DNA from: Tubiluchus corallicola | Taxonomy: Eukaryota > Priapulida > Priapulimorpha > Priapulimorphida > Tubiluchidae | Assembly (NCBI GenBank): GCA_030141605.1 | Contig: JAQGDQ010000015.1 | Span: forward strand, 682,001 to 746,000 | DNA: 64,000 nt | Direction of reading: 5' to 3' | In this document: piece after piece, positions 24,781-60,411 of the stretch | How positions within the stretch are numbered: position 1 is the first letter of the stretch | Layout: each line of letters begins with the position of its first letter | Made by a program: the position numbers and the translations under genes | Notes under the pieces: model-generated | Database searches by the model: none | Seen by the model: only the letters and a program-made list of their open reading frames with translations | Told to the model about the DNA's origin: nothing

Positions 24781-25114
24781 ATGAATGAAGTGGTTGTGTA
24801 CAAAGTTGAATACTGTTATGAACCAACAATTGATGACCCAGCAGCTGAAGACGAACTAGCTATTGTTCCGGGAGATCTCCTTCTAGTGCAAAAACGTGAC
24901 CTCCTAGACAAAGGCCTTAATCCAGAGGCACCTGGTAATGAGTGGCTGCGTGGGGAGAATGAACGGACAAAACTTAAAGGTTATTTTCCCTGCACTTATG
25001 TAAATTATGTTGGTGTGAGAAGTGCACCTCCTAGACCTGTCCCTCGAGTCACTCTGAAACCTTTGAGGAAATCACCATGTGATGATTCTGGTTATGGAGG
25101 GTCACCTATGAAAG
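24781..25114 (+). CDS. p85-like exon 1 (SH3 domain)
   Basis: Encodes VVYKVEYCYEPTIDDPAAED, the acidic loop, then DLLLVQKRDLLDKG, WLRGENERTKLKGYFPCTYV and NYVG. The long insert between the RT loop and the conserved Trp matches the 15-residue insert particular to PI3K SH3 domains, and FPCTYVNYVG matches FPGTYVEYIG. A PxxP-rich tail (SAPPRPVPRV) follows. It ends ATGAAAG|GTGAGT in phase 1. Confidence 0.92.
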
Positions 25115-28100
25115 GTGAGTAAGTTTTTCTTGTATACTGGTCTGTTTTCCCTATATTCTGGATGAGGATTCCAATTTTTACATACATAGTTTCTGAGTAA
25201 TTACCTAGGATTTCTGCCTAGAAGAAAAAGTGAAGTTCTGTCGAAAGGAACAATATGGTGAAGACTTCGCTTGTTCAAATGCTTTTGGCAGTATATTTAG
25301 TCATTTATATGAAGATTTATGTTTATAATTATATTTTACTTTAGTTGAGATATACATTGCCAATATCATAATCATATCAACGATAGTTCTGTTCATGTTG
25401 AGAGTATTTTAATACCGTTATCAAATGGCATTTTCTAGATTGAAAAGTAATTATTATTTCAAGTTATGTAATGGAGACAAATATATAATTTTTTTCAAAT
25501 TGCCCATAATTTAGTAACATTTCAAAATGTCAGTGCAGAAAGTCAGTCAATCATCTATCTTGCTTCACATATTCACTAGATTTTGCGGCTTTTTGGACCG
25601 TTCACATGGCTTCTTAAGAAACAAGATTTAATCTATTAAAGCTTCTCTGCAAACAACGGCTGCATTCATTGTTATGGCTAACCTGCTAGCCTTAGATCAT
25701 GGTGATATGACTATGCAATATTGTTTATATTGGGCTCCAGAAAAGCTAATGCATCTGCTCATCTGCTCTATAGTGTTTTATCAAACCATTAAACCTGCAT
25801 TTTAGCTTTATAATCCACAAGGATGCCCACAATCATATTTTGAGCTTGTGTTTTCCTTTTTGCTGATTCTTTGGTTTGAAATATATGTTTATGTGTATTA
25901 TATATTTATTATATATGTTATAGGCATGACAAGGTTTGTATGGATTTGCGCCTAAAAGAATCTTAGTTCTTAGCAAATTCAAATGAGATTAATAAACTTT
26001 CAATATATAATATTATGTAATGTGGTACGTTTAGATTCACAGAAATATTTTATTTCTTACAGGAACAGAAAAGCATACTCTCAGAGATGTACATAATTCG
26101 TTGCCTACGCTATGCGCATATTGTAAGTACAGAAAATTATAAATCACGCAGAAATCGTGCATCAGTCTAACATGGCCACATCAATACAATTCAACCTTTA
26201 AAATAATTCGAGTTTTTTTTTACCTACCTGATAATCTCCAAACCTAATTGTGAATGAGTCTCATATTGGTGCATAAATCCTTTCACCTGTATATGTCTCG
26301 CACTAATGCAGTATATGTCTATTATAAACTAACTTCTTATAAATTTCTTTCACTATTGAGTATTGAACGATTATTGACTATCTTTAACAGGGAAGTCACA
26401 ATGCTCAAAGATTTTTACATGTTCTAAGATTCGTGATCAGTTGACTAAAATTTTATTTTAACATAATTATTGTTTTTTTTTGGTTTAAATTTGTATAGCA
26501 TGTGGCTAAATTTGAATCATATGTCTGTATACTTGAGGCTTTTATTACAAGGCCTGATCTGGTTAACTTGCATAAATATTTATTTTCTTTTCTTTTTATT
26601 TTTCTTAAGTGGGTGTTGACTGTCATTTTTATTTTAAGAATTCATTTTCCCCATCGCAAATCATTTTTTCAAAATATAACAGTTTTTTTCTGTGTGCTGT
26701 GCTTTGTGAACTCAGAGTTACACTTGGTAAGTCAAATAAAAACCCGTGGCCATGATGTAGTTATTGATGAGTCTGCTCTCAGTTATTTTCCCTTTCTGTA
26801 ATGGAGTACAGTGTGTGTAGGAGGTTGTACTGTTTACTCAGCATTATAGATTTTCTCAAGTTTCACTATTCTCATTGAAAACGTCTGTGCGTGGTGCAAA
26901 AACATCGATTTCCCATTTCATATCTTGAATAAAATATAATATTACTTTCCTATCTAAGCACATTGGGCATCTTGTTAAACATACTCTGGCGTGCCTATTT
27001 TTAATGCTGTATAAGGACATATTAAGACAGTGACTCTCAACTGGATTGTCAGTTAAAGTTGCCATAGCTAATGCATTTCTAATGCAGTTGTTTAATGAAA
27101 AGTTTTTACTAGTAACTGAACCTCCAGCTGTACAATATTTTTTAGCATTTTTTGCCTTTCTCTTGGCATAACTTTATTGCTAGTGCTACATATTTATTAT
27201 GCTACTGTTTTTGTGCCAATATTTGCAAAATATAGTAGTTAAATAATTGCATGTGTCAAAGTCCAGCTCTTGAGTCCATTTGAGAAGAAGGTGAAGACAA
27301 ACTGTGACTGGATTTTCGAACTTGTCGTTTATTTGAACGTCTAGCATTCTTTCTGTCCGGGTACTTTTAATGTATAAGCTCATTCTCTCGGTTATAATAC
27401 TTTAATTATCTATTTGTTAAGCATTATTTGAGTCAAAACAGTGGTTCTTTAAATTTATTATCGAACAGAATTTTCGTTTAGGTCATTATTATATTAAGTC
27501 AGAAACTCAAAATACAATATTTTTGCTTTTAAAAATGTTTTTTGTAGATGTGTCTTTAAGTAAAAGTTTTTTTCCAACATTGTCTTGACATTGTAAAACA
27601 CTACAATATTTTTCACATGTATGTATGTCATCGTTTTATATTCCTGATAATAACACTTCCTGCACAATGAATTTTTTTATACTTTTGCAAAAAACTAATT
27701 ATCTTTCGTGGTAAGAGTATTTAAGTAGAGTGAAGTGCATTGTAGCTAAATACTTGTGTATCGTGCACAGAATGGGTGGCTAAATTGTATTTTTGTATTT
27801 CTATTGAATACTTGCTTGAATACAAATAGAACGAAATCAGAATCAAGTTATCCAGTCAGTGTTTAACATTACCAAAAGTTTAAATGGGAGGCACATTTTA
27901 ATGTAAAGACCTAAGTGATAAAAATTAATAGATATTACCTGCAAGATGCCCCCTAACAACACTAAATGATGTTTTTGGTGTGTGTATTTGATCTTTAAGT
28001 TTAACTTGCCTCATAAGTTTGATGACAAAACTAAACAAGGCTGATGCCGTTAACTTGTATCTCTGCCATCAAAGAAATTGCCAGCAGTTAGGTGAAATAG

Positions 28101-31100
28101 GGCTTACCTTAATGGATTATCATGAGATGGACGTTAATTAGAGCCAAACTCTCTGAATTTAGTGCATGTTTTTATCAAAGCTTGGCTGTTGTCACTTGTA
28201 CCAAGTTGGTGTGGCTAATTGTTACTAGAAAAGAATCATGTTTTCTGAATGATCATTGTTGGACTAGATGTAATTATGTAAAATATCTTGAATTATTATT
28301 TGTTATTATTATTGGTTCATTATTTGTTCTTGTAGCTTTATTGATACATTTCCATCACTACATGCTCATGATATGTGCATATCAGGAAAAGGGCATATCA
28401 GTAAGAGAGATATTTTTTGCAGTCTATGAATTGTATGGCCAATTTTGTTGCTTATTTAAGGTTTGCCAGAGTATCTCACTATAAGTAATTATTCAATAAT
28501 TAATAATTAAACATCTATTTTAAATAATTTGTGATATAATTTTAATTGATTTGACACTTAGTGTATATTACTTACATTAATTACACAGTGCCATTGTATT
28601 TTAGCCTGAAACTATTTAAAGTTTGTGAAAAGGTCGAAATTTATTTGCTTTCAGTCTGGGTTACCTGGTAAAGACAGCTTGCCTGTTAATTAGTTTAATA
28701 AACTGTCATTAATTGTGATGAACATCATTAAAGGTTTCAGTAACTGAAAATTTCTCACTATGTCATTTGGATGTAAATTAGGCATTTGTGTTAAAGAAGG
28801 CAATACAAACGTGAAGCACTAGCAGCAAAACACATTTGGAAATCTTTGGCCGTGGCCCAGGGCAGTGTAGGGGGCTGCTCTAGTACCAGTGGAAATTAAA
28901 TTGCTTTTTATGAGGTTTTTGTCACAGTAGATACTCAAGAATACTGTTGGAATTCTATTACAATTTTATCTTGTTGTTTTTCTTAATTTACTTTGGTCTT
29001 TGTATTGAAATCTCATTGAAGCTCACATGATTTCTTTAGAGAGCGATCCTTGTAAAAGTGCTATTACATTGTATATGAATCTATAACAGCATTTTTTTAT
29101 GTTTTCTTAATTATTGTTGAAGCCAACTATTTGTACAGTTTTTAATTGCCTTGGCGTAATTAAAACCTTGAGTAAATTCCAAACTCCAGAATTATCTTTT
29201 CTCCCTAGAAATTGAGAGAATCATTATCAATGTGGCAGACTGACTTCTTCATGAATGTATTTATTCTGTCTTTGACTTTAGCAGACTTCTTCATGTTAAT
29301 ACATATTTAGGTTCAGACTGCTGTTTGTGTTATGTATATTTGACTGGCAATGACTATATGTTTTTAAGTCAGTTATTTTAGTTGTTTGGGTCCTAATTTC
29401 ACCTCTTGCTGCATTCCTAGCATTGTTATTGTTAAGCTTACTTGTTTCTCGACATATTATAATTTCTCTGCTCTTAGCTCCTCTTTGCTCATTTAGTGAT
29501 CCAGAAACCTACTAGAAGAATTCCCACACCTTTACATGCCTACTCATTGGCTTACTTTGTAGTCTGCTTGTAAATTATTAAGGGAACACTCGTATTCTGC
29601 TCTATATTTGCAATGACTTATCTATTTCTAGGTATCCAAACCCTGACTTTGTCTTAAATGGCTTCATTTTACTAACTATTTCTGTTATGGTCTTGCTTTC
29701 TGAAGGGTTTCGTTTTGCAGCTAATCATGTAGGTGTAACATTTCTCTGCTTGATTATGGGAAGCTGGAGGGGCTTTATTACATGAATGGACTTCCACTTT
29801 CTTTGACACTGCTCATTGCGTCAATCACACCTACATAATCTGGAAATAATACACATGTGGCAATTTGCCAGAAACTCGTCCGTTTTTGTTGTTTGTTTTT
29901 TAACAGCTCAAACCGAGTAACAAAATTTCTTTGTGCGGGTGGAAGTGGAAGCCTCTCTTTTTCACATTAATTAGTGAGCGGCTTCCTTTGAAAATCTGAC
30001 AAATGTTTCATGCTGTGCCCCTGAAATTGGATTCTTATGAGAAATGTAAAAGAAGGCTGCTATTTTCTTCGTTACAGTTGAAACGATTTGTGTGCCTTTT
30101 AACAATAACTAAATTTAGCGATTAAAAGGAGACTACAAGTTGATAATTGCATTTCTTTGACTTTACTTTAATCTGGTAAACTAACACTAGAAGTTTTACG
30201 TACTAAATTGAATTTTAGCAATTATCACTGTGAATAGTGGCTTCTGGCCTTCTATCAATAGACTGTAGTTCAACTGAGGCAATAGATCCTTGGGAACTTT
30301 GACTAAAAGGCTAAGTTTTATAACTTCCTTGGGTGGCATGAATTAGAGACGACAAGTCTAAATTGTTTGCATGGTGCCTGTTCTAATTACTGGGAATATA
30401 TGAAATAGATATTGATTTATCCCTCTATTTAGGTGCTAATTAGGAGATCAGGGTAAATACAGTATTATTAGACACTTCAGGAAGCAAACTAATGGCTGAG
30501 GTTGCATTGTGAAACTATTTCCGAAATTTTGCGGCATCCTTGTCAAAGACATTACCACATTTCACAGGTGGTAAAAAAATTAGATGCACTACACAAAGTA
30601 CATTATAGCTTTGGAAGTTTCTGTGGACTTTATATAATACTACTTAAAATTTCTGTTTTTTTGTGTTACACAAATTGTTTTTCACATCGCTTTTGTTGTA
30701 TTATGTAGATTCCAAAATACAGGAGTTAGAAAACTGACTATTGGAAAACGATTTGGTTTTGATTTTTTTAAATATTTACTAAAGCTTAATAAAGTTTGTT
30801 TGTTTGTTTTTTCTTTTTTGGCCACTGTGTATGTATACTAAAAGAGCCTTTATTGTAATGTTATTGTTACTGATACTGTGTGTTGTTTATCTTGAGTCAG
30901 TTTCACTTGTTCAGTAAGGTGGTTACTAGCTTCTGTTTCAAAATCGTCAACAAACAACCAACTTACAAAAACAACTATTTTCAACCTTGCAGTTCTTTAA
31001 CAGAAAACATGGGTGTTGGGACTTTTGGCAGCCAGTGTCTTGTAGAAAAACAAAAATAGTTGTAAATCCTTTGAAGTTTAAAATTTTACTATTCTTTTAT

Positions 31101-34100
31101 TTAATATAAATCAATGAGAAATTTTTAGCAAATTCATAGCATCTTGAAGAGAATGTAAGAAACTGTGTTAAGCAAATGTCTACTTTTGTATTACTTGTGA
31201 TCATCTAAATTGACAATTTGCACTAAATTAAGCTAACCAAATTTTAAATAGGCTTTTATGCTTTATGTAGAATGCCACCTTATTGTGTTATTAGTATTTT
31301 TGTAGGTTTCCTCTATTCATATTTTTAATTGAATCAATGCTTTATGATAACACTTAAAGAAGATGCAAAACTTCATTGCTTAGTCACTATTTACGTTATA
31401 CTGCATGTTAAACACATATGTCATTTTTATTGCAGGCAAAGACTTTTTATGGGGTTCAGGTGACAAAATCGGGTCAAAATGTACAGGTAAGTTTATACTT
31501 TTTTGTTTGGCTGTCTTAATACATGTAACACATGTAAATAGTATGTATTGCATAATAAAATAATAAATAATTACAATAACAGGTTATGGTAATATCAGTC
31601 TACCTTAGCTTATTCTGTGACGTGAGCGAGCAAGTGGATCATGGCCCAAGAGCAGGAAACTCGACTCGTGTTTTCATGCTCTACGGATAAAACGGAACAA
31701 AACTCATACAGTTTAGAATTTTTATGGCAAATTTTACGATCAAAATAAATATCAGTTGTTTACCATTTCTATAATAGTTTCAACTCTTTCAATGTGTGAC
31801 TAGTTGAATGTCAGTCATCTAATATGTTTAGTTTACAGTGTTTTGAACCACATCCATGTACTTTTCTTTGGATCATTATGAGCTTGCTGTCATGTTCTTG
31901 AATCGTACAAATCGGTCCTTTAAGAGAGTTCAAAACTTCAAATTGGCAGGTGTGGAAGGCAAGCAGACTAATGAAAACCAAATTATGAAGTCTATTGCAT
32001 TAATCAAACTAACAATGAATCCATATTGGTCAGCTATTAAAAAGTAGTGGGACTTATTCCACAAATGTACCTAAAATCTAACTAAAATAATATTTAAGCC
32101 AAACCGAACTGCACAGATATTCTAGATTGAATCTGCAGGGCTTGGTTCTAATATGACTGCAATTAGATCTGCTGATAACTAGTTAACAGATATGCCCTTA
32201 TTGTTCTGGGCCTGTGGGCAGACAAAGACTTGGACAGATGGACAGTAGTAGACTTTTCCTCACTAAGAGCTAATGTGGAAATTACTGATTACTGAATCCA
32301 ACTAGCACAGTTTATTGAACGTTTTATTAGTTCAGGAACTCATTATGTGTTTTTTTCTGGCGATATATACATTAAAGTACATACTGTAATTTGGGTCATT
32401 CAGAAGCTGCAATAAAAGTTTATACGATACATATTGAAATCTAGGCTGGACTACTAATTTTGAATATAGCAGATCATTTAGCATACAGGTAGGCACAATA
32501 CTGTACTTTCTAGCAGGTAATAGGTTAAACAAAATAACGATATCATTCTGCAAATGAAACCACAGATTTTTGTTTTATTTTAGACAATATAAAGGTTATC
32601 AATTTGTTCACATTTTTGTAAATGGGGAAGCTACACTGTTATCAGAATTGTATTGTCTGGTGATACTGTGTTGCCATTAAAGTATCATGGAATTGTGTTG
32701 TCTGGTGATACTGTGTTGCCGTTAAAGTATCATGGAATTGTATTGTCTGGTGATACTGTGTTGCCGTTAAAGTATCATGGAATTGTGTTGTCTGGTGATA
32801 CTGTGTTGCCGTTAAAGTATCATGGAATTGTATTGTCTGTGATACTGTGTTGCCATTAAAGTATCATTATTTTTATAACACTTGTACAATGTCATTTGTA
32901 CAATGATATCACTCTTAGTTAGCATCTTTTTCAACTATTTGCAGAATGTGGCAAGATGTTTCATACGATGTGCAGCATGTTTATTGCCAACATTTCTTGC
33001 ACATCCTCTAATGGTCAGACTGAAGACACCGAAGTGGTAAGATTGTTAGTGTACACATTTCAAAGTTCATTGACTTCAGTTTCTTCGCATAACTAGTAGG
33101 TGGCAGTAATTTTGCTAATAAGGTGAAAGCATTGTGCTATTTGTCGTCTGGTTTTCAGAGACGTTTTACTAAAATACCAAGTATTGAACGCAAAATTGAA
33201 ATGTATCCTCTTATAACATTAAGTAATAAGATACAGTAAATTAAAGGAGTGAAAAGTAGTTGGAAAATTTCTCGTGTTGTCCTTTCGTAAAGGTTCAGTG
33301 CTCCGCATAACCGATAGCACTGATCATATAGGCAAGATAGACCAAGATAATATAACTCTTTGCACTATAGAGTGCATGACAGTTCTTAAATGTAACTGTC
33401 AAGGATCAATCTTCTTGCATAGTACTAGGCAATGGTTGACAAAATAAAATTGCATAAAACCTTTCTATGCAACAACAACGACAGCTGCATCAACTTAGTA
33501 AAATTATATAATTCTTAGAACATTAGCAAGTTTAAACTTATAAACTTTAAATACATTATGTTGATGTATTATGAATAATTACACCACTAGGTTCATTTGG
33601 TGTAAATAGTAGCCTAACTCGCATTTTATTAAGAATTATTTAAAAAGGTGTATTAACTGATATTACAACTAAGCATTGCTGTAAAATTGTTTTCATAAGA
33701 TGTATGATTAGCTTTGGTTATGATGCTGAAACAAGTAGTCATACTAATAAGTCACATTAATAATTATTGGTTTGTGTTATAGTCACATAGCTTTAGACTT
33801 ATGTCTCTGATTCTAGCCTGTTAGTAAATGGACCACAGAAGAAGTGTTGCAGTGGCTCGTTGTTGTCAACTTGGAGAGATTTGCCCAGGTGTTCAAAGCT
33901 TTTGGCATAGATGGCGCTTCAATTGCTAATATCAACGATTCAAAATTAGAGGTAAAAATAATCATGTCTAGGCTTTACAGAATTTTGTTACCGCAGCAAA
34001 GCTAGTATTTGTTACAATTAATTTCATGGTTAGCTGATTATTATTTTTTTATCTATTTTATTTATAAAGTATTGCAAAGTGTAAAGGTTAAATACAGCAG

Positions 34101-37100: not shown

Positions 37101-40100
37101 TGTGGTACATAAAATGTCTTAAATAAGTGCACAATTCTAGATTCAAAGAATTAAATGTGATTGTTTCAAACAAATATAGTAGATGTTAATACCAAATTTA
37201 ATCTTAATGTTTCTAATTTTTATCCATTCTAATCAAAAATAAATTTCTATTACTTATATTTCACATTCAAAGTGTAACCCAGAGTACTAAAATGGGGTTT
37301 CAGCATATATTTGAATTTGGGATTTGCAGCTGTAGTATTTAAATTCTAATTTTTTTAAATAAGATGTTTATTATTTGTAGATAGTTTTATTTGCAACCAC
37401 ATTTAAGGGCAAAAATCTTCTCAAGTGGCTTTCGCTCGCTATGCTTTGTCCTATTGACTATTGTGCATTGAGATTGCATTCTGCACAACAGATCTAAAAT
37501 GTCAAGTGCTTTAAACATTTTGCACGTGTTGTATAGCATGTTCGTAAATTAATTAATTACTGTAAATTATAAACAAGCATATTTTTCAAATTGCTGATTT
37601 CTTAGAAATATCTTCTGTTTGTTTATCAAACATTATGTACACTATGGGCTCAGTTTTATGAGTTCATCAAGGTGTTAATGCTTGTTTTGATCTGTAATCT
37701 ATTTCAGGAGATCATCAAAACAAGTGGATTAAAAACTGAGCAAAATATTTTTCACAGTGGGTGGTGCTGTATGTACACTGCTGCCATCTGTTGGAAATGC
37801 AGATTATTCTATAAGAGCTTGTTTTGTTGTTTCAGTTGATGGGAGTGTTAGAAGAATTTCATAAACAGGCAATCCTTGTTAGTATAGATTCTCTATATCG
37901 GAGGAACAATGTCGTGGTGTGTAGAAGTTTATTGATTTTCCTGCTGTGCGTACTGTATAGTGCATAACACAAATTGTTTATTTAATTTAATGTCTTATTT
38001 AATTTTTATCCTCTCTTACATTATTATTGGGCCATTTCTTTAACTAACATTTGTAAAATGAGGATGCATTATGAGTTTGGTGGCATAGTTAAGTGGCATC
38101 ATTCCAAGTCATTGGTACAGCTTTGTAACAGCATTGCCATGTTTTTATCATCATTATCAAATTTATCATGATCATCATTATTGTCATTTAAAGGGTATTA
38201 TCCACATATCTTCGTATTTTGACTGAGAATGATTGCATAATGGATCTTTTATCGCTGTGTTCCAGTTTACCAATCCCTATGATAATGTTGTCGTTAACGG
38301 GAACAAGGTCAATGGTCATCAGTTCCAGGAACACAGTTTGCTGAGTGTGGAAAATTGTGATAAGTGTTGTTTGCCATTTCTTGGTACCGAAAAACAAGGA
38401 GTTGTATGCCGAGGTTGGTAGAAATTAGTTTTGCTTCAGAACCCCAGTAAACATAATTATTGTGCATCATGTACGATGTGTAGAAGCCAGCCTTGCATCA
38501 TAAATAAATAGCAAAGCAGTTCTACTAATTTGTTTTTCTGCCGAGGTTATTATCCAGTTCAGTCTTGCGAAGTTGAGAACTGGGTGTTTTCATGCCCCAA
38601 AATTATCCACAGAAAAGTCTGATTAAGGTAACGTGCCTAACAACAGAAGATTTGAAAGACAAGTTTACATTTTGTTAGCCATTGACATTTTATTTCTCAT
38701 TAGGAAGCAAAGTTTTGCCAAGTCCACTATAATAATACAGTGTGTCGTATTTATGATCAAATCTGATGCTGACGTACAGGAAATTTATCTGTCTGTTATG
38801 TTTTTGTGTGTTTCAAGTGTCATTTATTAAGGCACTGGTAGCACTTGAATTACTTTCAAAAAAAATATGGTGTAGTTTTACAGTCCTTTTCATCATGATT
38901 TGGGCCCAGAATTATTTTGTGGGTAGTTTTTAATGAAGTGGTGCTAGAATGTGTAAAAAACAGTTAATTCGCATTTTGTTAAATTTTAACTTGTCCTCAC
39001 TTCATTTTTGCCAATGTTCACCAACTTTTTTAGCTGACTAATCTAACATTTTTGCAGTTTGTGGTCTTCAGTGCCACAGGTCTTGTGCCAAGACTGGATT
39101 GAGTGCTTGCGAGGCATCAACAGAACGAAAAAAGGACCGCCTTGGCCAAGGTACTGTTGCGGCAGTATTGTTTCTCTTACTGTCTTCCATTCTTCTTTAT
39201 CTCAATTTACATTTAAAGCCGAAAATAATGATTATTAAATTACTTTATTTTGTAGGCAGGCCTCCGTAAATTCAAACAAAACTAAATAGTAACCAAGCGT
39301 CATTCCAAATGGCAAATCTGTTAATACATCTTAAAGAGTATAGTAAAAACTGCATTGCTCTAAGTAATAGCTATTGTACTACTTATCAGAGTAACAGGCT
39401 TTAATAAAGGAAATTTCATTCACGCTGAGATTGCCGACATTTTCATTATATCTGCAAAAATTGCTGTTGTTTATGATATCTCATGTGCAGAGTGCAAGAA
39501 TTGCAGCTGCTTTTATATCTATGACTGACTGCAGAATAATGGACCATATTTCACTTAGGATTTCAATTCATGGGTCTTCTTCCATTTAACATGTCAGTAG
39601 AAAGCACTCTTATTTTGTGAGTGTATTATCATTAATTTTTCATATTTTCCTTTGTTTCTTTCCTGTTTTGTGTACTGTAACTGCAGGAAATGCCTTAGAT
39701 TAGAGTTTGTTTTCTCTGTTTGTATATTGAATAAAGGTTGTTCGTGTATTGTGTGAAAAACACTAGAACTATGTCCAACTTGTGTCATCTCATAATGCTG
39801 TTTTTCACTTTCATTATTTGACCGCCGTATATTTTTATCTATGACTGTTTCTAGTTTTTGGCGTTGAACTGGGAAAACTATTTAATGACAAGGAGGAACG
39901 GTGTCCATTGATTCTGCAACGCTGCATAGACGAGATTGAAAGCAGAGGCAAAAAGGAAGGTGAGTTTGTTTAACTTTTCTTGTATTTTTTGCATCTGCCT
40001 AACTGTGCAACTAAAAATTTTTTCATAGTTCCATCAAGATTTATACTTATTTGTTATCTGGAGCTTAGGTTTTTTTTGCAGGCAAAATACATTTCTGTAA

Positions 40101-43100: not shown

Positions 43101-46100
43101 AGGATTAGACGGCTGTTAAATTCATTTGATGCTTAGTTTACTTCAATAACAAATCTGTTACATAGTCCATCTGAAATTAATGGAAGCGAGTAAATTTGAT
43201 AGAATTTGGAATTGCGGGTGTGGTATATTAATGAACGGATTGGACTTGTGCTTGCGTTACCTGCGTGACAGATGGCACAGGTGTGCTGATGTACAGCCTC
43301 GGTGTAATTAATATTTAACATATGCACGCTGATGCTGCAGATGCCCGAACTATATTTATCCCTGGACGATGTCTGTTTCTAGGCAAGAAGGAATCCCTCT
43401 GCGGCCCGGAAAGTTATTAATGTCTGCCGCTAAATTATCTCGTTGCTCTAGTTGATGCATTTTAGGAACTCATCTAAGCATGAAGCTCAGGGACCAAGCT
43501 TTTTCAATAAGCAACTTCTTATAAATTGATAGTGCATGCGTGTACGACATTCTCATCTATGTCCGAACATTTTGAGCGATTGGTTATATCGCCATGATGA
43601 GCAAACGAAAAAGCATGTACATATGAATAAAAGAGTGAATAAATGACGAGTGAAGAAACGAATAAATGACTAATAAATAAATAAATTGACTAAACTATAG
43701 GTATACGCATCGCTGTGAACAAGCAATTAGGGAATGACAATATAACTTTTGCCTGCTTCCAAAAAGCTTCAAGTAACTTGATTACTATGTACGTTTTGCT
43801 TGTGGTGACTGGTATTTTGATCATTGTAATATAGGAAGCTATTTTTAATAGTTGTCATTCAGGTGTAACCTATTGCTTATATCATTGATACTTATGTGAC
43901 AGTATGTTAAGTTGTTTGTGTTCAAACTACCATTTTTACCTATTGTAACAGCGGTGATGATGATGATGATGGTGGTGGTGGTGATGGTGATGGTGATGAT
44001 GATGATGATGATGATGACGACGACGATGATGACGGCAATGATAACGATGATGACAAAAATGACAAAGGTGACTGTAATGATGATGGTAATGTTGACATGA
44101 AGAGGAGACGAATGAGGATGATGCTGGTGATAGTGATCTTGGTGTGGAAGCCTTAATTACAGCAATGACCACAGGGACATTGACAGTGTGGCCAACCACT
44201 TAGGATAATTTGGTAAGACGGCTTCCTGTTTTTCTCCTTATGTTTCAAGGAAATGAGCTAGAATAAGGAAATGGGAGACATGTGATTGTACTTCCTGCCC
44301 TTTCAAGTCATACTATTTCATCCTTATTTTGAGTTAAATTACTATATTAGTTTTTAAATAAACATTTTTGTGTAAAAACTTTTGCATAGATCTACTTGTG
44401 ATTTATATCAAGGTGCCATATTAGAGCAAAGAGGTACATTATTAACACGCTATTTATATCAGGTAAGTGTGGGTGTAGTGCTAAAAGTACTTCTAAATCC
44501 TGCAGACAAAATTCATTTCATGGTAAGAAGTATAAGGGGAACTTTACAATTCATGCCATATTAAAATTGAACCAATGCTTTGAAAATTCTAGTAATTCTT
44601 GAAAAGTGAATTCTTATTTAGTATTATTTGGTGCATTATAATAGCTCTTAAATAGTGTAATTAATTTTGATTAGCTTGCTAAAGGAAATTAAAAGGTTTT
44701 GCTTTCTTGTTTTTTAAGTAGGCCATTATTCGGTAACTTCAGTTTGTCTTCTTCTTGAACACAATGGCGTTTTTGAATGACTTTATTTCAACCCCTTCAG
44801 AATTGTGAAATTTGGGCTATTAGTAGTGTGTGTTTGCAAATATCTCTTATATTAATATTCTTGGTATATTTATATATATATACTGGCAATACATGATATA
44901 TATATAAGATTCGAGGCTACAGCCCGGACGAGGCCACAATTTGCGGCGATCTATATATCAAACGAATTGTAAAATTAATTACACATGAATTTTTGAGCAC
45001 ACTTTGAAGGAAAAGAGCAGGTTTTTAAATTTTCTACATTTAAAAACTCCCAACAAATTTGGTGTGCATTTCACTAAGGAGATCAACCAATTAATTATAT
45101 TTGTTTGGCTGTTGAAATATTAATTATAACTACTATAAATTTAGCTACTTAAATTTTAACCTGTACTGTTTAAGTATCAGTGTTTCACAATCATGTTCCT
45201 TGATCACAAGAGATTATTCCCATGAAGAGTGGAAAGTTACCCCATCATGTGATACGCCTGCATAATTCCTTGACAAACATGAATTTCATTATCAGTTTCT
45301 TATCGATAACCGTTTATGTGTTTATAAATAAACGATATCTGTTTTGGATGTTTGCCTATTTCAAGTCTTGTGATAGACCCGTGCATACATAATTGGAGAA
45401 TACACGTGGTTGTGGATAACGGCCAGGCATATATTATAGGCCTTACTGAGTTAACCAGCAATTACATGTAATGCTACTTTTAAAAAATATTTTGTTCATA
45501 TGAATGTGCGACTCGTTTGATACTCAATTTACAGATCGATATTCGGTAAGTGAATTTTTTTCGTGCATAAGATTTGTTACCCGTTAACATGGTTTCCTCT
45601 ACCTAGCTAGTGTTACATTTAAAACATTGAAAATTCCTGACTGTAGTCCTCGCGTGGCTCGGTAGCACATGAATAATTGCTAGGTAGCTTTAGTACCTGT
45701 TGAATGAGCATTGTTCTCGTTACCTTTTTATTGTTGAACTAGATTTAAAATTTGACATTAATAAGTTGCCTAATGCGTCAAGTTTAGCAGTTTGCATTTA
45801 AATTTTTTTTATTGAGAATATTAGTTGCCCTTTTTAGTTCTCATTTTGTATTTGTGATTATAGAAATAGCAACTTATCTAGACAGGAATTTTCTTGATGC
45901 ATTATCGTAGCGGTAGACATGTGATGCATACGCCTGTCATTTTATGTTACCTTGCAGTGTTTGCCCATGTTAAAGTTTGCCTTACACTGCATTCGTACCA
46001 GATAATCTTGCTGGGTTAATGTGCTCATTTTCTACTTCAGGCCAAAGCAATTCCGTTATCAAGGGTGTGGGTGATGGGAACATTTGCAGTTGTTGCCTGT

Positions 46101-49100
46101 CCTTAGTTGCTCAACCGCTTGATATTAGATTCTTGTCTAGCTATGAGGACCCCCTGAATAATGAGACTATTTATTCGCAGTTTTGACAGGTACAAATCAT
46201 GCAGCGTAGCCTCACGTGATGTCTTTGTCACAAACATAACTATTAACTTTAATGATACATCCAATACTGTTGTACCAGGCTTCGTTACTCGATATTTGCA
46301 GGCGCAGGTGATTAGATTATCTACTTGACCTAGTTCTAAGCAAATCCGCTCTTCCGTATCTTAATTAGCTCGGCTGCCTGTGGATTGCGAAAAAAACAAT
46401 CTCCTTGCGGAAGACAATGCGCCGCCTTACTCTGGACGGTTGATGAGATTTTGTACGTCATCACTGAAGCCAGTTTGTATTGATCAACGCGATGACCTAA
46501 AATGAAGCCAGTTACACAAAGACTTTTGCAGCAAATCCCTATTACGGCAAAGGAAATGGCAGAAATTGATTATACGCTTGGTCTTGTTAACGTTACTTCT
46601 CTCTAGCGTATGTTGTTGACCCAGTTTTTGCGGGAAAGTAATGAGATTTGGGTTTTATGGTTGTGGCTTCTCCCTGTTCTTTGTATGGCGATTAATATGG
46701 GTTTTTTTACCGTGACTGGTCTTTTGGACACCAATAAGTCAACATCGACGCAGTGAAATTTTTTTTCACCCGAAGACAAAATACATTTACCTAATAATAA
46801 TATCAATACAAACACTTACGCTGCGTGAGGCGAGTGTAGAACGTTACCAATAATAATACGGGCAAAAGCTCACTATTCAAAAAGTAATTATCCTAGGTAA
46901 AGAAACAATTGAAAAATTGTCCCCTCATCTGAGTGGTTGTTGAGGGATTTTTATTGGAATCAGTTTGGGAGTCCTTGCTCAGAAACAGTTCTGTGCTAAT
47001 ATTCTGTTGTCCCTGAATTTATATGTCAGACTTTTAAAATGAGTTTTAACGTATGCACATAACTCGACGTCTCACCAGGGTTGACTTGAAACAACATCAG
47101 TATTTGTGAGTCTAGCTGCTAGCAATCATTTGAGCACTCTTAAGGTCACTGTTTTGTTATATAGTTTGCATACATTCCTGTTAGTAACTGATTTTGTGAA
47201 TACATGAGTGGTTCAATTAAATAATTAGTAGCAAAATAAACTAAATGTTCAGAAAACACGACAAAAAATACTGATAAGAAAACAAAAACAGGTATTGTTT
47301 GGATACAAAGAAGCAATGCAATTGATTTAAAATTGAGTTAAAACGACTGACATTTCTTTCAATTGATTCTTCGATAAAAGATTAAAATTTCTATATTCTG
47401 TACAGCAGTTACTTATATGTTCTTTCGCAAAATTTATTCTGGCTAGCCACATCCTTTTGCAATCTTAAAAGTTAATACAGAAAATTTCTAAACACTTCTT
47501 GTCAGATTTGGTGCTCACTTTCAGTAACAATCTTGTACAAGTTGAAAACTTGCTATCATTACTAAGCTCCAAAAAATTAAGCAAAGTGCAACATGTAAGA
47601 TTTGTTTACTCATATTACATCCTTTGTTAGATTACCTCCTATTACCTTACGTTGGTTAATACAAATCATAATTTACATTAACAAGTTATACAAATGGCGA
47701 GATATTTTTACATATACGTTTATTCCTGTTTTTTAACTAGGCGTCATCGGTGGTTGTTTAGATTTGCTGAGACAGTGGTAACTGAGAAGCAAGAGAAACA
47801 CTTTGTCACTTTTCAGTATAGTCTCGCTTACAAAGAACGAGCCTGGTTACAACCTCGCGTAGGACTCGGAAACAAGCCACCCATGTACCCAATATTTTTA
47901 CTTTTTACTTTGATATAGTGGAGGGCGATTTCGGAAGTTCGCACAAGAGGGAGTGAAATGTTTTCGACCAATGCTTTCACATTGTGTGATATCTGGCATT
48001 ATAAAATAAATAAATAATGGGTTCATTAGAAAGTCACACCATAACGGTAAAACTGAATACAAGATGTGAATACAATAAAAATAGAAAAAGAGTCAAATAG
48101 CACATAAGAGGCATTGATAAAAATTTGCAGAAATAACATCACAGAGTCAGTAATTTAAAACCAATTGAGACAAATCTTTTATTATAATTTAGAAAGAAGT
48201 TCCTGATTACTATTTATAGTTCTAATTACAGGAGACATTGTCGAACGTTTGTAACTTTCTGTTCGCATTTTAGACATGACTAATTTACTGGAATTTTGAG
48301 TAATACGATGGCTTACCATAAGACTGTTGATGCTTTAGCATCCTACGTAAACACAACTCCTGGCGTTACAGTTATTATCATCATTGTAATTGCCATAATC
48401 ATCATACTCGCTCTTTAATTTGCAATCATCATCATCGTCATCATAACCATTTTCTCCTGCCTCTTGTTGTCGTTGAATATACGTGGTGCATACTCTGTTC
48501 ATTAATTCTGAAGATAATGTTAGTTTCTCATATGATATTTTTCATTTTGGCCTGTAACATTTCCAATCAGCTAATTTTAAGCTCTACTAATTTTTCATCA
48601 TCATTGTCACTTGTAGTTTAAAACGGTCGTTGAACGGCAAAAAGAAATCACTTGGAGTTCATTGAATTTTCCCCAACCGCTTTGAGCAGTTATTAAATAT
48701 TGATGTTTCGTTTGGATTCGTGTGTTTGGTGTACCATGTCGAGACATTCCGTCACGTGGCATGTTAGTTTCTTGCTGCTGGCTTCGCTGCTTGCGTCAAT
48801 TTTTTCAAGGTATAATTCTTCCCGTTTCTGTAATAAATACCTTACCTTGTGGTTTTTGTGACGCATACATTGCAGATGTTATTCTAACCGGCTATTGTTG
48901 TTATATTGTCTTTCAACTTTTACTTCAGATAATTTCCATAATAAAATATTGATTTGTAACATTTTGTCACAGTCTGACACTTCTTTCTTCCTATTATGGT
49001 AACTAGTTAAATAAGAAAACCTTACAAACTCATTGCTTCGCTGAAACGGTTTTTGATTATTTGTAACCACGAATGCTCTAAGGGAGACTTTTTTGTGGTC

Positions 49101-52100
49101 AACCTCGATGACAAAAACTGCAGTCGTATCGATGTCGATGAAGAGCAGCAATGTTAACCTGATTATGATGTTCAAGAAGAAGACAGTGGCAAGTGATAAG
49201 TGTGGTTGATGGAGATGACGAAGATGATAATGATGATGGTGGCGATGAAGATGATGATGATGATGGTGATGATGATGATGATGACGACGACAATGATGAT
49301 GATGCATGATAACAATGATGAAGATAAGTTGACAATAACGAGAACACGAAAACAACAGTGACAACAAAATACTAACGACAAAATCTGACGTTAACGGTGA
49401 TGATGACCGTGATGACAAATGATAACAACGACAGCGCCGACAGCAGGTAGTAGTGGAAAACATCTTGAGTGGGCTGGCTTTGTGGGGGTGTTGGCCGTGC
49501 ATTGATAAAAAGTAAACTTCATAGGCTGACAATGTAAGGTTGTAAATGTTCCATGTTCGCTGGCATCAGTCGTTTAGTTGCTTAATCTCTCTACTTCAAG
49601 TCACCATCACTTCACCACAAAGGCTTTTACTTAATGGGAAGCCAGCAAAAGTTGATGACACCTAAAAGCGTCTATATATTGCTGCTAATGTAACTTGGCC
49701 TTGCAATGCATAGTGTCTGGCGTACATTCTAAACTCTGATGACGTTTTATTAAACTTCTCAGGAGTAATGAACCGTGTCGTTCAACTCAAATGTATCTTT
49801 TCTGTAATAATTATAGAAGTTTTCGTTTAGCGGGACGTTGAACCTGCTAATAGGCCTATAGGTTGTTTGTGAAGCCACTTAAATTGTGATAATTATCACG
49901 CGTGTTGGCTTCTGTTTTTGTCATTCAGGAAGGTGAGTTGTCAAAAATGCCTGTTGTTTGTTGAGTTGAATATTAATTTTGTTTGTTGCTTATGGAAAAC
50001 TATGATCACATGGAGGGAGTTGTTTTACATACGTGGTGGTTTTGAAACGCTAGTAAGCAATAACATTATGTTGTATAATAAAAGTATAAATACCTGATTT
50101 GAACTCGATGCTATATGATATTCGCATGCTTATTAATATTTATTTTCTGGCTCATTTTTGCAGATTTTTAGCCTGTGTCCATGGAAATTGATAGGAAGTA
50201 AAATAACCAGAAAAGTACAAGATTATTTTCTGTAATTTGGTAATAATGAGAATATAATAAAAACGTATGATAAGCATCAATGAGTAGCTTTTCAGAAGAC
50301 ATTTGAGTAGCGCAAAATGTATCGTGTTTTTCCAGTGGAAAGAGATAATTCGTTAAAGTTAAATATTTTAAATATAGTTAATTTTGTTAATATAATTTAG
50401 TGAAGTAAACTGTTAAATATCAACGAATTGCCTACATAGCATAGTCATTTACTTTTTTCTACAGAAATAAAACTAAAGGCTAATACAAACAAGTTGACAT
50501 AATTAGTAATGTTGATTTAACAAAAAGTAGTGATATTAGATTTTTGGATACCAAACTTAATTGACTGTATATGGGGACAAGTCTGTGGAAGACCCAGAAA
50601 CCTAATGCTTTAAAGGCTGAAAGGTCAAGGTCACAGGGTTCAAAAGTGTCAAAAACGCATAGTAAAACAAAAACGGATCGAGCTATATAGTTGCCAGTCT
50701 TCTCAGTTGGCACCTGGATCAGATTTGTAAAATCTGGAAACCCATTTCCTGTGTTTAAAGAATCGTATAGCGTAATGCTGCAAGGTTCAAATGTAAAAAA
50801 ATCTATCTGCAAAACAACGTCAAAGCAGATGAAGATATAATTGCTAAACTTGGCACAAGGAAACCCATTGCTTTGGGTTCAAAAGGTTAAAGGTCGTGGT
50901 CTCAAGATGAAAATGTAGTAAATGAATTTTTTGCTTACAGTGACTTCGTTTGATGTTCATCGGTTTTGCAAAATGTGCATGGATAATTGCTGAAAAGCTT
51001 TAAACTGATACGTGCACGTTACGATGCTTCAACATTTATAGACTAACTTGATCTCCTGTTTTAATTTTAAATTTTTTGTTTGATTCAATTTTACGTGGAA
51101 ATATTTTTGCGTAAATGCTGTGAAGACTCTGAACTGGGACGCGGGTGTATACACACGCACGCACGCACACACACACACCACATACACTACACACACCACA
51201 CACATGCATGCACGCGCGCACACACACACACCACATACACTACACACACCACACACACCTCACACACACACATAGACGTAAAGGGAAAAAGTTGCACCAG
51301 AGCTACATGTACGTAAAATGTCAAATATCAGCATCCATAACGTTTTAAAACGTCATCGCGTGTCTTGAGAATTCATCTGTAGTAAGATTGAGCTGAGTTT
51401 CAGTCTCAGAATAGTGCGGTCAATGTCCTAAACTATTTAGATTTTGTTGTCAAAGTCTCACATTGTCGTATTGATCCTATTTCCTCTTGATAGGTCACAG
51501 ACATATTGCGTGAGAGTGACGGAAATGGGACTATTAATGGTTGCTTGTTGGTATCATGTTTTAACTATTGATAACTTGGATTTGAAACCAACAACATTGA
51601 TAGTGTGATTATCACTAGCTTACGCAGCTCATTGTAAATGAAGGAAGCATTTAAATCAATTCTAGCTGCTGTCCAGCCAACACGAATCTAACATTAACAA
51701 GTTTTATTTTCCTCGAATTAGAATAACTATTAATTACTTTATTAGACGATTTTCATAGTTCCGAGACACGTGACTAACATGCAGCAGACGGTTATGAATA
51801 GTGGTAGAAAGTTGAATTTCATTCTTTTATTCTTTGTACGATTTGGCCTTAGATAAATAGATCTGCGATGACAGGTGTATCTTAACTTTTAATAAATTTG
51901 TTTTGATTTGTAGCATAATTGATTGGGAACGATCTGCGCTATTAATAATATTGAAAACCATTGTGAAATTTGAAAAAACATTACAAAAGTGTTGGTGTTT
52001 TTACTCCCATAAAATTAAAAGCCGAAACACTACGTGGACGTACGTGCAAGTTTGGCGATCTGGGTTTGACATGCAGAAGCAGCGGTTGCTGTGTACTTCT

Positions 52101-53247
52101 GGATAGATCCTTTTCACATTGTACGAACTATATGAATGAAGTGATACCAAAATCCTTCGTTTCTAAAACGTGGTGTGCATGTTTTAATAGCCAGATTGCC
52201 AAAATTTCGTGTTTTGCCATTTCTTATACATTTCTTATACGTAGCATGGTATTTTCCTTTGCAGACATAGATCTTTACAATATCTACAGAGATACTGCTC
52301 CAATAAATGCTTTAAGGGAAGCAAGACAGCACTTGAAAAACGGTAAGTTGTGTTGTTGTCTTTAACTCTTTTTTTTGAATTATGATTACGATATTGTACG
52401 CTGTGTTGATTTAATGTTATTTCTAGGCCGAATTGAATTGCCCACTTGCTGCGTCATCAGCGTCAAGTAAATCCCAGCTTGTATAGATCCGTTTTGAATA
52501 ATTTAATTCATTATAAAAGTTCATGAATCTTTGATTACGTACATTACGTGAATCGCTTGTCAGCACACGTGTATACTGACGACCTAGTAGATTTCTGTCT
52601 AACACAGAAACTTTACGGTATATTTGTGGACATAGGTCGTTGTACTTTAATGTTTACTTAGTGTTCTATATTCTAGTTGTTAAAGAGCAAACGACCGTGA
52701 TAAGATTAACTTGATCACTCAGTATCGAGTTGAATTTAACATTTTTTGAATGATGTGTGCATTTGCTCATATGTAGCTTATGAGCATTTGCTTATCTAAT
52801 ACATACATTCATTTATTGATTCATTGATTTCATTGATTGAATTTTTTGTTGATGGGTGATAATGTAGAGGGAGGGGCAGCAGCAGCAACACTGGTACCAA
52901 TAGAATTGTTACTTCGCTAGCAGTTTTTCGACTTTCCTTTTTTATTTTTTCCACACTCATGCACATTACATTTTAAACGTTAGTTTTTTTACTTTAATAC
53001 TGTATATCTGCAAGTTGGTTAAAACTGCCCCAAACTGTGATATAATTCAATTTTAGTGCAGTAAAACCGGCTACATGCAGGCCGTACTGTGCAATAACGG
53101 GGTGATGAATTATAGCATGTCATTTCCCGAACGCTTTTTATTGTAGTTTTATTTGTTGGTGCATTAAAGCCATATTACAATATTTCACCTGTGCAGACAA
53201 CCAAAACTCATATCCGGCTCTAAACGCTGATATTTCGCTGTTGCTAG
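24781..53247 (+). CDS. PI3-kinase p85-like regulatory protein, SH3-C1-SAM-C1-RhoGAP(BH), 11 exons, 3' end not in window
   Basis: Exons are 24781-25114, 26063-26122, 31436-31486, 32945-33036, 33817-33951, 37836-37916, 38266-38413, 39058-39150, 39855-39959, 52265-52342 and 53197-53247, all joined in phase. They give about 409 residues. Domains in order: SH3 (about 4-80) with the long insert loop typical of p85 SH3, a Pro-rich linker, C1 (H116-C167), SAM (180-250), C1 (H269-C318), then a BH/RhoGAP start with VFGVELGKLF and NIYR (R375 at the arginine-finger position). Class IA p85 subunits bind and stabilise p110 through SH2-iSH2-SH2. Those parts would lie to the right, so p85 identity rests on the SH3 and BH segments. 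An in-frame TGA upstream of the first ATG fixes the start. Confidence 0.85.
25115..26062 (+). other. p85-like intron 1
   Basis: 948-bp AT-rich intron. Nothing recognised. Confidence 0.8.
26063..26122 (+). CDS. p85-like exon 2 (start of first C1 domain)
   Basis: A 60-bp exon between CTTACAG| and GCATATT|GTAAGT. It encodes EKHTLRDVHNSLPTLCAY, the HX12CX2C opening of a C1 zinc finger (H116, C129, and C132 formed across the splice). Confidence 0.88.
26123..31435 (+). other. p85-like intron 2 (5.3 kb)
   Basis: I see no conserved coding sequence. A 120-codon open stretch at 28122-28484 is hydrophobic and unsupported. Confidence 0.75.
31436..31486 (+). CDS. p85-like exon 3 (middle of first C1 domain)
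   Basis: A 51-bp exon after ATTGCAG|, ending GTACAG|GTAAGT. It encodes KDFLWGSGDKIGSKCT, with the conserved aromatic Trp and the third zinc cysteine (C147) of the C1 domain. The preceding intron is 5.3 kb. Confidence 0.88.
31487..32944 (+). other. p85-like intron 3
   Basis: 1.46-kb intron carrying the 45-bp minisatellite at 32645-32868. Nothing else recognised. Confidence 0.8.
32645..32868 (+). repeat. 45-bp minisatellite, five copies
   Basis: Unit begins TGTCTGGTGATACTGTGTTG and continues through the TATCATGGAATTG segment. The copies are nearly identical except for a few A/G changes and a one-base deletion in the last. Because the unit is a multiple of three it stays open as a repeated LSGDTVLPLKYHGIV, but it lies inside an intron between two C1 exons. 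Confidence 0.9.
32945..33036 (+). CDS. p85-like exon 4 (end of first C1 domain)
   Basis: Encodes ECGKMFHTMCSMFIANISC and a polar tail. It supplies C150, H155, C158 and C167. The last spacing is X8 instead of the usual X7, so zinc geometry or lipid binding may be altered. Confidence 0.88.
33037..33816 (+). other. p85-like intron 4
   Basis: 780-bp intron. Nothing recognised. Confidence 0.8.
33817..33951 (+). CDS. p85-like exon 5 (SAM domain, first part)
   Basis: 45 codons, phase 0 at both ends (TTCTAG| ... TTAGAG|GTAAAA). It encodes PVSKWTTEEVLQWLVVVNLE, then FGIDGASIANINDSKLE, the W..EEV..WL and IDG..L..L signature of SAM domains, which mediate protein interaction. Confidence 0.9.
33952..37835 (+). 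other. p85-like intron 5 (3.9 kb)
   Basis: Holds a small inverted-repeat element with a telomere-like core at 36238-36384. Otherwise no recognised feature. Confidence 0.75.
36238..36384. repeat. Inverted-repeat element with degenerate CCCTAA core
   Basis: Left arm GTTTACAATTCCCCACACAA and right arm (complement) GTTTACAATCCCCCACACAC enclose about 70 bp of variant CCCTAA/CCTAAC repeats (36270-36340). It looks like a short foldback or MITE-like element. An interstitial telomere remnant is the alternative. Confidence 0.6.
37836..37916 (+). CDS. p85-like exon 6 (SAM domain, last helix)
   Basis: 27 codons, phase 0 at both ends (GTTTCAG| ... GTCGTG|GTGTGT). LMGVLEEFHKQAILVSIDSL is the terminal SAM helix (LGI...HR..IL..I..L). 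The preceding intron is 3.9 kb. Confidence 0.85.
37917..38265 (+). other. p85-like intron 6
   Basis: 349 bp. Nothing but a short ATCATTATCA-rich run. Confidence 0.8.
38266..38413 (+). CDS. p85-like exon 7 (linker and first part of second C1)
   Basis: Begins after TTCCAG| with FTNPYDNVVVNGNKVNG, then HQFQEHSLLSVENCDKC, the HX12CX2C of a C1 domain, and ends GVVCR. The donor CGAG|GTTGGT is weak at +3, but it is the only site that keeps the CX2C spacing and phase 1. Confidence 0.85.
38414..39057 (+). other. p85-like intron 7
   Basis: 644 bp. Nothing recognised. Confidence 0.8.
39058..39150 (+). CDS. p85-like exon 8 (end of second C1)
   Basis: Encodes VCGLQCHRSCAKTGLSAC, completing a C1 domain with exact HX12CX2CX13CX2CX4HX2CX7C spacing across exons 7-8, then a basic linker (ERKKDRLGQ). 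The donor CAAG|GTACTG is in phase 1. Confidence 0.88.
39151..39854 (+). other. p85-like intron 8
   Basis: 704 bp. Its 3' end (around 39715-39854) has a diverged partial copy near 40593-40649. Confidence 0.75.
39855..39959 (+). CDS. p85-like exon 9 (start of RhoGAP/BH domain)
   Basis: Encodes VFGVELGKLFNDKEERCPLI, then LQRCIDEIESRGKKE, the FGV.L..L...P..L..C...IE..G opening of a RhoGAP fold. It ends GAAG|GTGAGT in phase 1. The following intron is 12.3 kb. Confidence 0.88.
40650..40723 (+). pseudogene. Partial duplicate of RhoGAP exon 9 (possible alternative terminal exon)
   Basis: After the same acceptor (TTTCTAG|) the sequence matches the first 42 bases of exon 9 with four differences, giving VFGMELGKLFNDKE. 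It then diverges into FADYNSYSSE and a TAA stop. The acceptor phase equals that of exon 9, and an AATAAA overlaps the stop. It is either a dead exon copy or an alternative last exon that would truncate the protein just inside the RhoGAP domain. Confidence 0.7.
40752..40925 (+). repeat. 47-bp tandem repeat, about 3.7 copies
   Basis: Unit AATGAATTTTTGTTGTGCCC continuing with ATATATCAAACAGTCTAAAC and AATTAAC. The middle copies are identical and the outer ones diverged. Confidence 0.85.
40978..41097. repeat. Short inverted-repeat (foldback) element
   Basis: CAGTTCTGGGCAGAATTGAC at the left and GATCAGGTCTGCCCAAAACT at the right are imperfect inverted repeats of about 20 bp enclosing about 80 bp. 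It is possibly a small MITE. Confidence 0.45.
43952..44110 (+). repeat. GAT/GGT microsatellite
   Basis: Imperfect (GAT)n with GGT and GAC variants. The long ORFs here on both strands (poly-Met, poly-His) are artefacts of the repeat. Confidence 0.9.
49203..49330 (+). repeat. GAT microsatellite
   Basis: Imperfect (GATGAT)n with GGT and GAC variants. Poly-His and poly-Ser frames on the complement are not genes. Confidence 0.9.
50590..50990 (+). repeat. Diverged tandem repeat with AGGTCA motifs
   Basis: The phrase GGAAACCCATT(G/T)C recurs at about 50590, 50735 and 50858, each followed by a GGTTCAAA or AGGTCAAGGTCAC stretch and a poly-A-rich segment. The repeat period is about 125-145 bp, with three diverged copies. 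Confidence 0.5.
51152..51275 (+). repeat. CA-rich microsatellite with a 53-bp higher-order repeat
   Basis: CA and GCAC runs include two near-identical copies of CCACATACACTACACACACC spaced 53 bp apart. Confidence 0.85.
52265..52342 (+). CDS. p85-like exon 10 (RhoGAP/BH, arginine-finger loop)
   Basis: After TTTGCAG| it encodes DIDLYNIYRDTAPINALREA followed by RQHLKN. This corresponds to STLYRTQSSSNLAELRQLL of human p85 alpha. The loop is YRDT rather than the YRVSG of active RhoGAPs, as in p85, so GAP activity cannot be assumed. It ends AACG|GTAAGT in phase 1. Confidence 0.85.
52343..53196 (+). other. p85-like intron 10
   Basis: 854 bp. Contains a possible alternative exon at 52427-52466 (TTTCTAG| ... 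GTCAA|GTAAAT) reading GRIELPTCCVISV. That exon enters in the correct phase but leaves in phase 2. Confidence 0.55.
53197..53247 (+). CDS. p85-like exon 11 (RhoGAP/BH, continued)
   Basis: A 51-bp exon between CTGTGCAG| and TTGCTAG|GTAAAA, phase 1 at both ends. It reads NQNSYPALNADISLLL. Placed after RQHLKN it aligns without gaps to CDTPSVDLEMIDVHVLAD of p85. Support is from phase, splice sites and length; residue identity is modest. Confidence 0.6.
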
Positions 53248-53532
53248 GTAAAAAACCAATATTACCCCAGCATTAGTTTGTCTAGACTGGCACTTTTTAT
53301 CGTTTCAGTCGAATGAACTCTTTGCCAAGCCTTTTTACTCTTTGCTATATATAAGAACTCTTATGTCATACACGCAGTAGCGTAGTTTTTACTTTTGATG
53401 TTATAAGCAGAAGTTTTTTTTTATTTTAGGAAATGTAAGCCCCTGCACTGGGTTAGCCTTCCTTCAATTTCTTTTCAGTTTTAGTTTTATTTAGGACAAA
53501 ATGTGTTTTACGAACAAAAGTTTATCCTCTTT

Positions 53533-53794
<262 letters not shown>

Positions 53795-54948: not shown

Positions 54949-55220
<272 letters not shown>

Positions 55221-55224
55221 GTAG

Positions 55225-56946: not shown

Positions 56947-57280
56947 TGCCAGAAATGGGATGGCTTCTAAGTTTTTACTTAAGCAGAGAAATTTCAGCGA
57001 ATTGCAATACAATTTTGCATTACATAAGCGCAACCCAGGAACCGACGTCCGAAGACGTCAATGACGTAAATCTGGGGGACACGCATCAGAGTATAACTTT
57101 AAGTTCTCTTACAGGTATAATCTAGTGCAAATTAGGACTAACTATTAATACTGATATAATTCATTATCAAAACAAGACGTTTCATTATGGAACTCACTAG
57201 CAAAAAAAGTTAAGGAAATGCTTGTTTTGTCCGCCTCTAAAAGAAAACTAAAATATCATATCTTCTTAACCAGATTTTAG
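55225..57280 (+). mobile_element. 5'-truncated non-LTR retrotransposon (LINE) with endonuclease tail, reverse transcriptase and C-terminus
   Basis: Open from 55225. It starts with the tail of an APE-type endonuclease (GASTIDLIIS), then a linker and a reverse transcriptase. It ends with a WNSLAKKVKE...FK-type C-terminus (57151-57280, TAG) typical of CR1/Jockey/L2-group elements. Between the RT stop (56946) and that C-terminus only about 200 bp remain, far less than normal, so an internal deletion is likely. The 5' end abuts a microsatellite. The exact 3' boundary is not seen, and about 200 bp of AT-rich 3' UTR may follow. Confidence 0.85.
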
Positions 57281-60400: not shown

Positions 60401-60411
60401 GCCAATAATGT

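Follow-up and report, generated by a model that had tools for sequence, protein, structure and literature searches.

A p85-type PI3K regulatory subunit with a C1-SAM-C1 block predicted in the priapulid Tubiluchus corallicola

The p85 proteins, regulatory subunits of class IA phosphoinositide 3-kinase (PI3K), are central to cancer and insulin signalling, and the SH3-proline-rich-BH half of the mammalian protein is usually taken as the standard. In mammals, p85 holds p110 via iSH2 and brings it to phosphotyrosine sites via the SH2 domains. The chimaerins have the layout SH2-C1-RhoGAP, with the SH2 domain preceding C1 and with no SH3, SAM, or iSH2. Other forms of the class IA regulatory subunit were reported by Philippon et al. 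in 2015: according to their paper (PMC4617754), a C1 domain is found in Mollusca, Cnidaria, and Ichthyosporea, where p85alpha and p85beta have another N-terminal domain, a SAM_1 or SAM_2 domain is found in Mollusca, Arthropoda, and Choanoflagellida, and SH3 is found in Choanoflagellida and in the actinopterygian p85alpha. Here we describe a predicted p85 gene of Tubiluchus corallicola, which starts in a window of 64,000 nucleotides (the whole stretch of DNA analysed, positions 682001-746000 of contig C2301, plus strand, in an assembly of 343.5 Mb and 2344 contigs) and continues to the right of it.

The contig was extended rightward by 70,000 bases (C2301:746001-816000), and coordinates were continued past window position 64000; 5,000 of these bases, at 120501-125500 and to the right of the p85 gene, are N. 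Exons were located by reading frame, splice sites, and phase, with splice sites chosen at GT-AG, so that all 20 introns are GT-AG by construction; the phases fit at all junctions. The predicted gene has 21 exons on the plus strand, 24781-84989, which join into one open protein of 983 aa with a single stop at the end and with the layout SH3 - Pro - C1 - SAM - C1 - RhoGAP/BH - Pro - nSH2 - iSH2 - cSH2. The initial annotation had ended the coding part at 53247, suggested a link to PI3K or a Rho GTPase pathway, and advised a rightward search for nSH2, iSH2, and cSH2. The predicted end is at 84989 (C2301:766989), and nSH2, iSH2, and cSH2 were all found at 80180-84989, on the same strand and in the same frame as the SH3, C1, and SAM exons. 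The whole exon model, and hence the transcript, is a prediction.

The curated Pfam cut-offs are 26.5 bits for C1, 20.5 for SAM_2, 24.5 for RhoGAP, 31.5 for iSH2, and 30 for SH3. In the whole protein, iSH2 (PF16454, the p110-binding coiled coil) scored 142.8 bits over profile positions 6-161 of 161, followed by RhoGAP (106.2), SH2 (93.3, two stretches), C1_1 (53.1, two stretches), and SAM_2 (39.0), all above the cut-offs. The same holds for the domains scanned alone after joining their exons: the first C1 (C1-1) scored 38.2 bits, SAM_2 44.7 (profile 2-65 of 66), the second C1 (C1-2) 37.1, and RhoGAP (PF00620), which lies before nSH2, 110.2 (profile 1-146 of 148). Two SH2 domains (PF00017) flank iSH2, each with an FLVR-type Arg in the translation (FLVRDAST and FLIRKGRT). 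The Pfam models of SH3 stay under the cut-off (SH3_9, 22.0 bits in one scan and 17.3 in the whole protein), and identification of this domain therefore rests on comparison with the PDB, where each of the nine matches at E<=0.001 is a chain of p85 alpha or beta. These results bear out the p85-like protein with C1-SAM-C1 between SH3 and RhoGAP that had been read from the window.

The top PDB match of the protein, among the best 60 of 197 matched sequences, is full-length p85alpha (5m6u_B, E 3.2e-136), which aligns with aa 348-981 and, as a second stretch in the same order, with the SH3 domain. The gap between the two aligned blocks, 248 residues here versus 28 in 5m6u_B, is the C1-SAM-C1 insert. 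In the alignment, D and N stand at p85alpha chain positions 560 and 564, which we take to be important, in both proteins. A Pro-rich stretch follows SH3 (SAPPRPVPR, aa 81-89), another precedes nSH2 (EPPPRPPRP, aa 538-546), and 5m6u_B has Pro-rich letters at the corresponding alignment places. Taken together, the domains and alignments point to what is apparently a class IA PI3K regulatory subunit and p85 orthologue.

In the whole assembly, the iSH2 family has three matches at E<=1, two of which are exons of this gene; the third, on contig C2317, scores 21.6 bits against the cut-off of 31.5, and no second iSH2 locus above the cut-off is thus present in the assembly. The p110-type p85-binding domain (PF02192) has two matches, on C501 (75.4 bits) and C2203 (72.7 bits). 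The matched part of the former includes a single stop, which could result from the end of an exon; the two loci are different sequences with no DNA match between them. Since iSH2 exceeds the cut-off only here and two p110-type domains lie elsewhere, the gene, as far as these contigs show, is apparently the sole class IA PI3K regulatory subunit of the animal and not a chance run of exons. One p85 locus and two p110-type loci agree with PMC4617754, which gives non-gnathostomes, Mollusca and Annelida among them, a single regulatory protein and two catalytic subunits of class IA.

The RhoGAP domain is nearer n-chimaerin (81.1 bits) than the BH chains of p85 (1pbw, 54.5; 6d87, 52.2). The Arg finger and the conserved Asn of RhoGAP domains matter for catalysis; the Arg-finger position is kept here (IYR), and the Asn of the chimaerin AENL stands opposite Lys (PTKL). 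The n-chimerin structure 3cxl aligns with aa 268-523 at E 5.3e-33, and because this alignment runs across C1-2 plus RhoGAP, it suggests that the C1-RhoGAP pair may be an old unit. For SAM, the nearest solved structures are those of liprin-beta-1 (E 7.9e-8, summed over three stretches), diacylglycerol kinase delta (3.6e-5), and CNK2 (7.7e-5); as none is a close relative, no partner can be named.

The C1-SAM-C1 block comprises exons 2-8, seven exons of 660 nt in total, with phase-1 introns on both sides. When it is removed in silico, the frame stays open and a protein of 763 aa with the layout SH3-Pro-BH-SH2-iSH2-SH2 results. The block is thus symmetric, and its loss or skipping would leave a p85alpha-like layout in frame. 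Vertebrates could easily have lost the block in this way, or it could be subject to alternative splicing, and skipping could yield p85alpha-like isoforms in this animal today; the symmetry is suggestive only, because its probability by chance is about one in three.

We propose that, in this protein, the iSH2 coiled coil would hold p110 and the two SH2 domains would bring it to phosphotyrosine sites. The C1-SAM-C1 block beside BH would most likely be a docking and assembly module, in which the C1 fingers may make zinc-stabilised, weakly diacylglycerol-binding or non-binding contacts with membranes or proteins, and SAM may serve homo- or hetero-association. The SH3-C1-SAM-C1-BH layout is probably the older one, and the vertebrate SH3-Pro-BH linker may be its reduced form. 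As a whole, this explanation, namely an only class IA regulatory subunit with a docking and assembly block and a probably older layout, is the one that we favour and consider probable. A bolder version would make the ancestral animal p85 a hub responsive to lipids: its C1-SAM-C1 block, with a diacylglycerol-binding signature divided between the two C1 fingers, would have tuned PI3K assembly or Rho-GTPase binding, and a single in-frame event would have removed the block in vertebrates; this we put forward as a speculation, with the odds heavily on the other side.

The zinc ligands HCCCCHCC are complete in both C1 domains. The translated spacing is H-X12-C-X2-C-X13-C-X2-C-X4-H-X2-C-X7-C in C1-2 and H-X12-C-X2-C-X14-C-X2-C-X4-H-X2-C-X8-C in C1-1; it is thus canonical in the second domain, as initially annotated, and in the first, two gaps rather than a single one are each longer by one residue. 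In PMC9110374, Pro241, Gly253, Gln257, and Gly258 of PKCdelta C1B are described as strictly conserved in diacylglycerol-sensitive C1 domains, and the QG motif as essential. In the alignment, C1-1 keeps Pro, both Gly, and Trp, has Ile instead of Gln and one extra loop residue, and C1-2 keeps Gly, Gln, and Gly and has Val instead of Pro and Leu instead of Trp, so that the four-residue set of PMC9110374 is found neither in C1-1 alone nor in C1-2 alone. For comparison, nine other C1 loci of the genome were used, which hold 10 of its 33 C1 matches; a pattern search gave eight C1 sequences from seven of the nine loci; L027 and L029 yielded none, and two of the eight lack their first part. All four residues are present in three of the eight (one from L021 and two from L022), of which two are presumably PKC-like and one Unc-13-like, judging by motif. 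The sequences from L023 and L024, which by motif we take to be aPKC-like, lack Pro, and those from L025, L026, and L028, read by eye, lack two or more of the four.

These data bear on the suggestion that the C1 domains do sense diacylglycerol, whereby p85 would bring PI3K and BH to a diacylglycerol-rich membrane after phospholipase C activity. The intact zinc ligands agree with such a role, as does the fact that the closest solved relatives are PKC C1 domains, and C1-1 and C1-2 together hold all four residues. However, with Gln replaced in one and Pro in the other, each domain by itself is short of one strictly conserved residue, and the diacylglycerol link drawn in the initial annotation is therefore weakened, though the zinc ligands are kept (PMC9110374). 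The distribution of the full set among the comparison sequences, including its loss of Pro in the two aPKC-like ones, also speaks against this role, which we consider unlikely. About equally unlikely, in our view, is a gain of C1-SAM-C1 in one animal lineage, by insertion into a p85alpha-like protein. The 660-nt block between phase-1 introns would fit exon shuffling, in either direction, and the unequal spread of C1 and SAM, with an additional SH2 in Cnidaria and Ichthyosporea, could be read in the same way (PMC4617754). On the other hand, the same source places C1 at the same position in Cnidaria and Ichthyosporea, outside bilaterians, and the RhoGAP domain is closer to that of n-chimaerin, where C1 precedes RhoGAP, than to the p85 BH 1pbw (81.1 versus 54.5 bits). 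Far less probable than either is a pair of neighbouring genes, one encoding an SH3-C1-SAM-C1-RhoGAP protein and the other, to the right, a separate p60-like SH2-iSH2-SH2 protein. The joining of exons is predicted and BH is interrupted by introns of 12.3 and 24.5 kb; however, the RhoGAP match, 1-146 of 148 at 110.2 bits, requires exons on both sides of these introns, the phases fit throughout, and the domain order is that of p85alpha, which leaves the two-gene arrangement hardly credible.

Several points weigh against the single p85 with an old docking block that we prefer. Both long introns, of 12.3 kb and 24.5 kb, fall inside the RhoGAP/BH domain. The word "only" refers to these contigs, as parts of the genome may be missing from the assembly. 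We infer p110 binding, all functions of the block, and the direction of evolution, and the docking role is a proposal. In PMC4617754, it is an additional SH2 that is given for Cnidaria and Ichthyosporea, and the ichthyosporean protein is single and very short, its reality being doubted by the authors. The case for one old layout is weakened because these two groups have SH2 and not SAM, and because one of the proteins is doubtful. For the spread of the exact order SH3-C1-SAM-C1, the text of this paper would be the sole source.

The layout, initially considered as possibly undescribed, is not new as a kind, since a 2015 paper (PMC4617754) already gives C1 and SAM domains for the class IA regulatory subunits of invertebrates and of their unicellular relatives; the T. 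corallicola protein is a well-documented member of a little-studied kind. What is added here is the exon-by-exon structure, with the block as seven exons and 660 nt between phase-1 introns. No functional study of the layout was found in the open-licence literature. The CDD presumably has separate models for the two C1 repeats of "PIK3R-like" proteins, an uncharacterised p85-like group that would share the pair of C1 domains, and one for the SAM of a PIK3R subfamily; no paper that links "PIK3R-like" with "C1 domain" came up in a text search. Given that the apparently only p85 of another animal carries three further domains, the proposed reduction of the vertebrate linker and the roles of C1 and SAM for PI3K become testable.

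All exons lie on the plus strand. Exon 1 (24781..25114), whose start codon is assumed, with an in-frame stop just upstream of the ATG, encodes the p85-type SH3 domain with its insert and the first Pro-rich stretch, SAPPRPVPR, and ends in phase 1. C1-1 is encoded by exons 2 (26063..26122, first third, H-X12-C-X2-T/GC, phase 1-1), 3 (31436..31486, middle, phase 1-1), and 4 (32945..33036, last third, phase 1-0); the intron after exon 2 splits the codon of a zinc-binding Cys (T, then GC). The intron between exons 3 and 4 contains, at 32645-32867, five copies of a 45-bp unit with 96% matches. SAM is encoded by exon 5 (33817..33951, first two thirds, phase 0-0) and exon 6 (37836..37916, last helix, phase 0-0), whose donor lies either at 37916 or at 37910. 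Candidates for exon 6 were absent under strict cut-offs and numbered 50 and 63 rows in relaxed lists; the one at 37836 was picked by eye and then compared with nine hand-chosen rows of the 63. With exon 6, SAM_2 scores 44.7 bits, against 31.2-33.0 with the nine other candidates and 32.6 for exon 5 with the following intron letters.

C1-2 is encoded by exons 7 (38266..38413, first half, phase 0-1) and 8 (39058..39150, second half, phase 1-1), and RhoGAP/BH starts in exon 9 (39855..39959, phase 1-1) and continues in exon 10 (52265..52342, phase 1-1), which contains the Arg-finger position (IYR) and is the last accepted exon within the window. The last exon of the initial annotation, 53197..53247 (plus strand, 17 aa, phase 1-1), is doubtful, because its inclusion lowers the RhoGAP score from 110.2 to 102.3 bits; it is probably not real and was omitted from the model. 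Intron 10 (52343..76858, 24,516 bases), of which the window holds 52343..64000, contains an open frame of 573 aa at 55225-56943 (plus strand) with an RVT_1 match of 81.6 bits, a retroelement, and long CT/TC microsatellites at 53535-53795 and 54949-55216. In continued coordinates, exons 11-14 are at 76859-76987, 78553-78760, 79860-79957, and 80180-80300, exons 15-18 at 80585-80686, 81107-81302, 81510-81763, and 83243-83419, and exons 19-21 at 83656-83760, 84308-84490, and 84788-84989. An alternative donor of exon 12 at 78778 also keeps the frame, but it is a poorer splice site (GTTTGA versus GTATGT). A 94-bp unit is present twice in tandem (2.0 copies, 98% matches; 78440-78624 in continued coordinates), and with it the acceptor and first part of exon 12 (RhoGAP); the first acceptor leads to a stop, and the frame stays open from the second. 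This repeat may reflect either recent duplication or an artefact of the assembly.

To the left of the p85 gene, an RNA polymerase largest subunit is represented by one exon (951-2018, minus strand) with Rpb1 domains 2 and 3, which by likeness only we take to belong to RNA polymerase I. An open frame at 6521-7153 (plus strand) has a weak leucine-rich-repeat match (21.0 bits versus the cut-off of 27). To the right of the gene, at 89615-90902 of the extended stretch, open frames resemble RRM RNA-binding domains, by eye only. Rfam gave no match within the window. Searches with one mollusc haemocyanin family and one arthropod cuticle family were likewise negative, which is no proof of absence.

Compared with known systems, the predicted protein combines features of several families. 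In the chimaerins, C1 stands directly before RhoGAP, as it does here. The subunits described in the text of PMC4617754 share RhoGAP, SH2, the p110-binding region, and SH2, plus C1 or SAM by lineage; two C1 domains around SAM, or SH3 together with them in one protein, are not stated in this text, nor is the splice structure given. Unlike the T. corallicola protein, mammalian p85alpha (PIK3R1) carries neither C1 nor SAM; it likewise consists of SH3 with the p85 insert, Pro-rich stretches, BH, nSH2, iSH2, and cSH2, in the same order.

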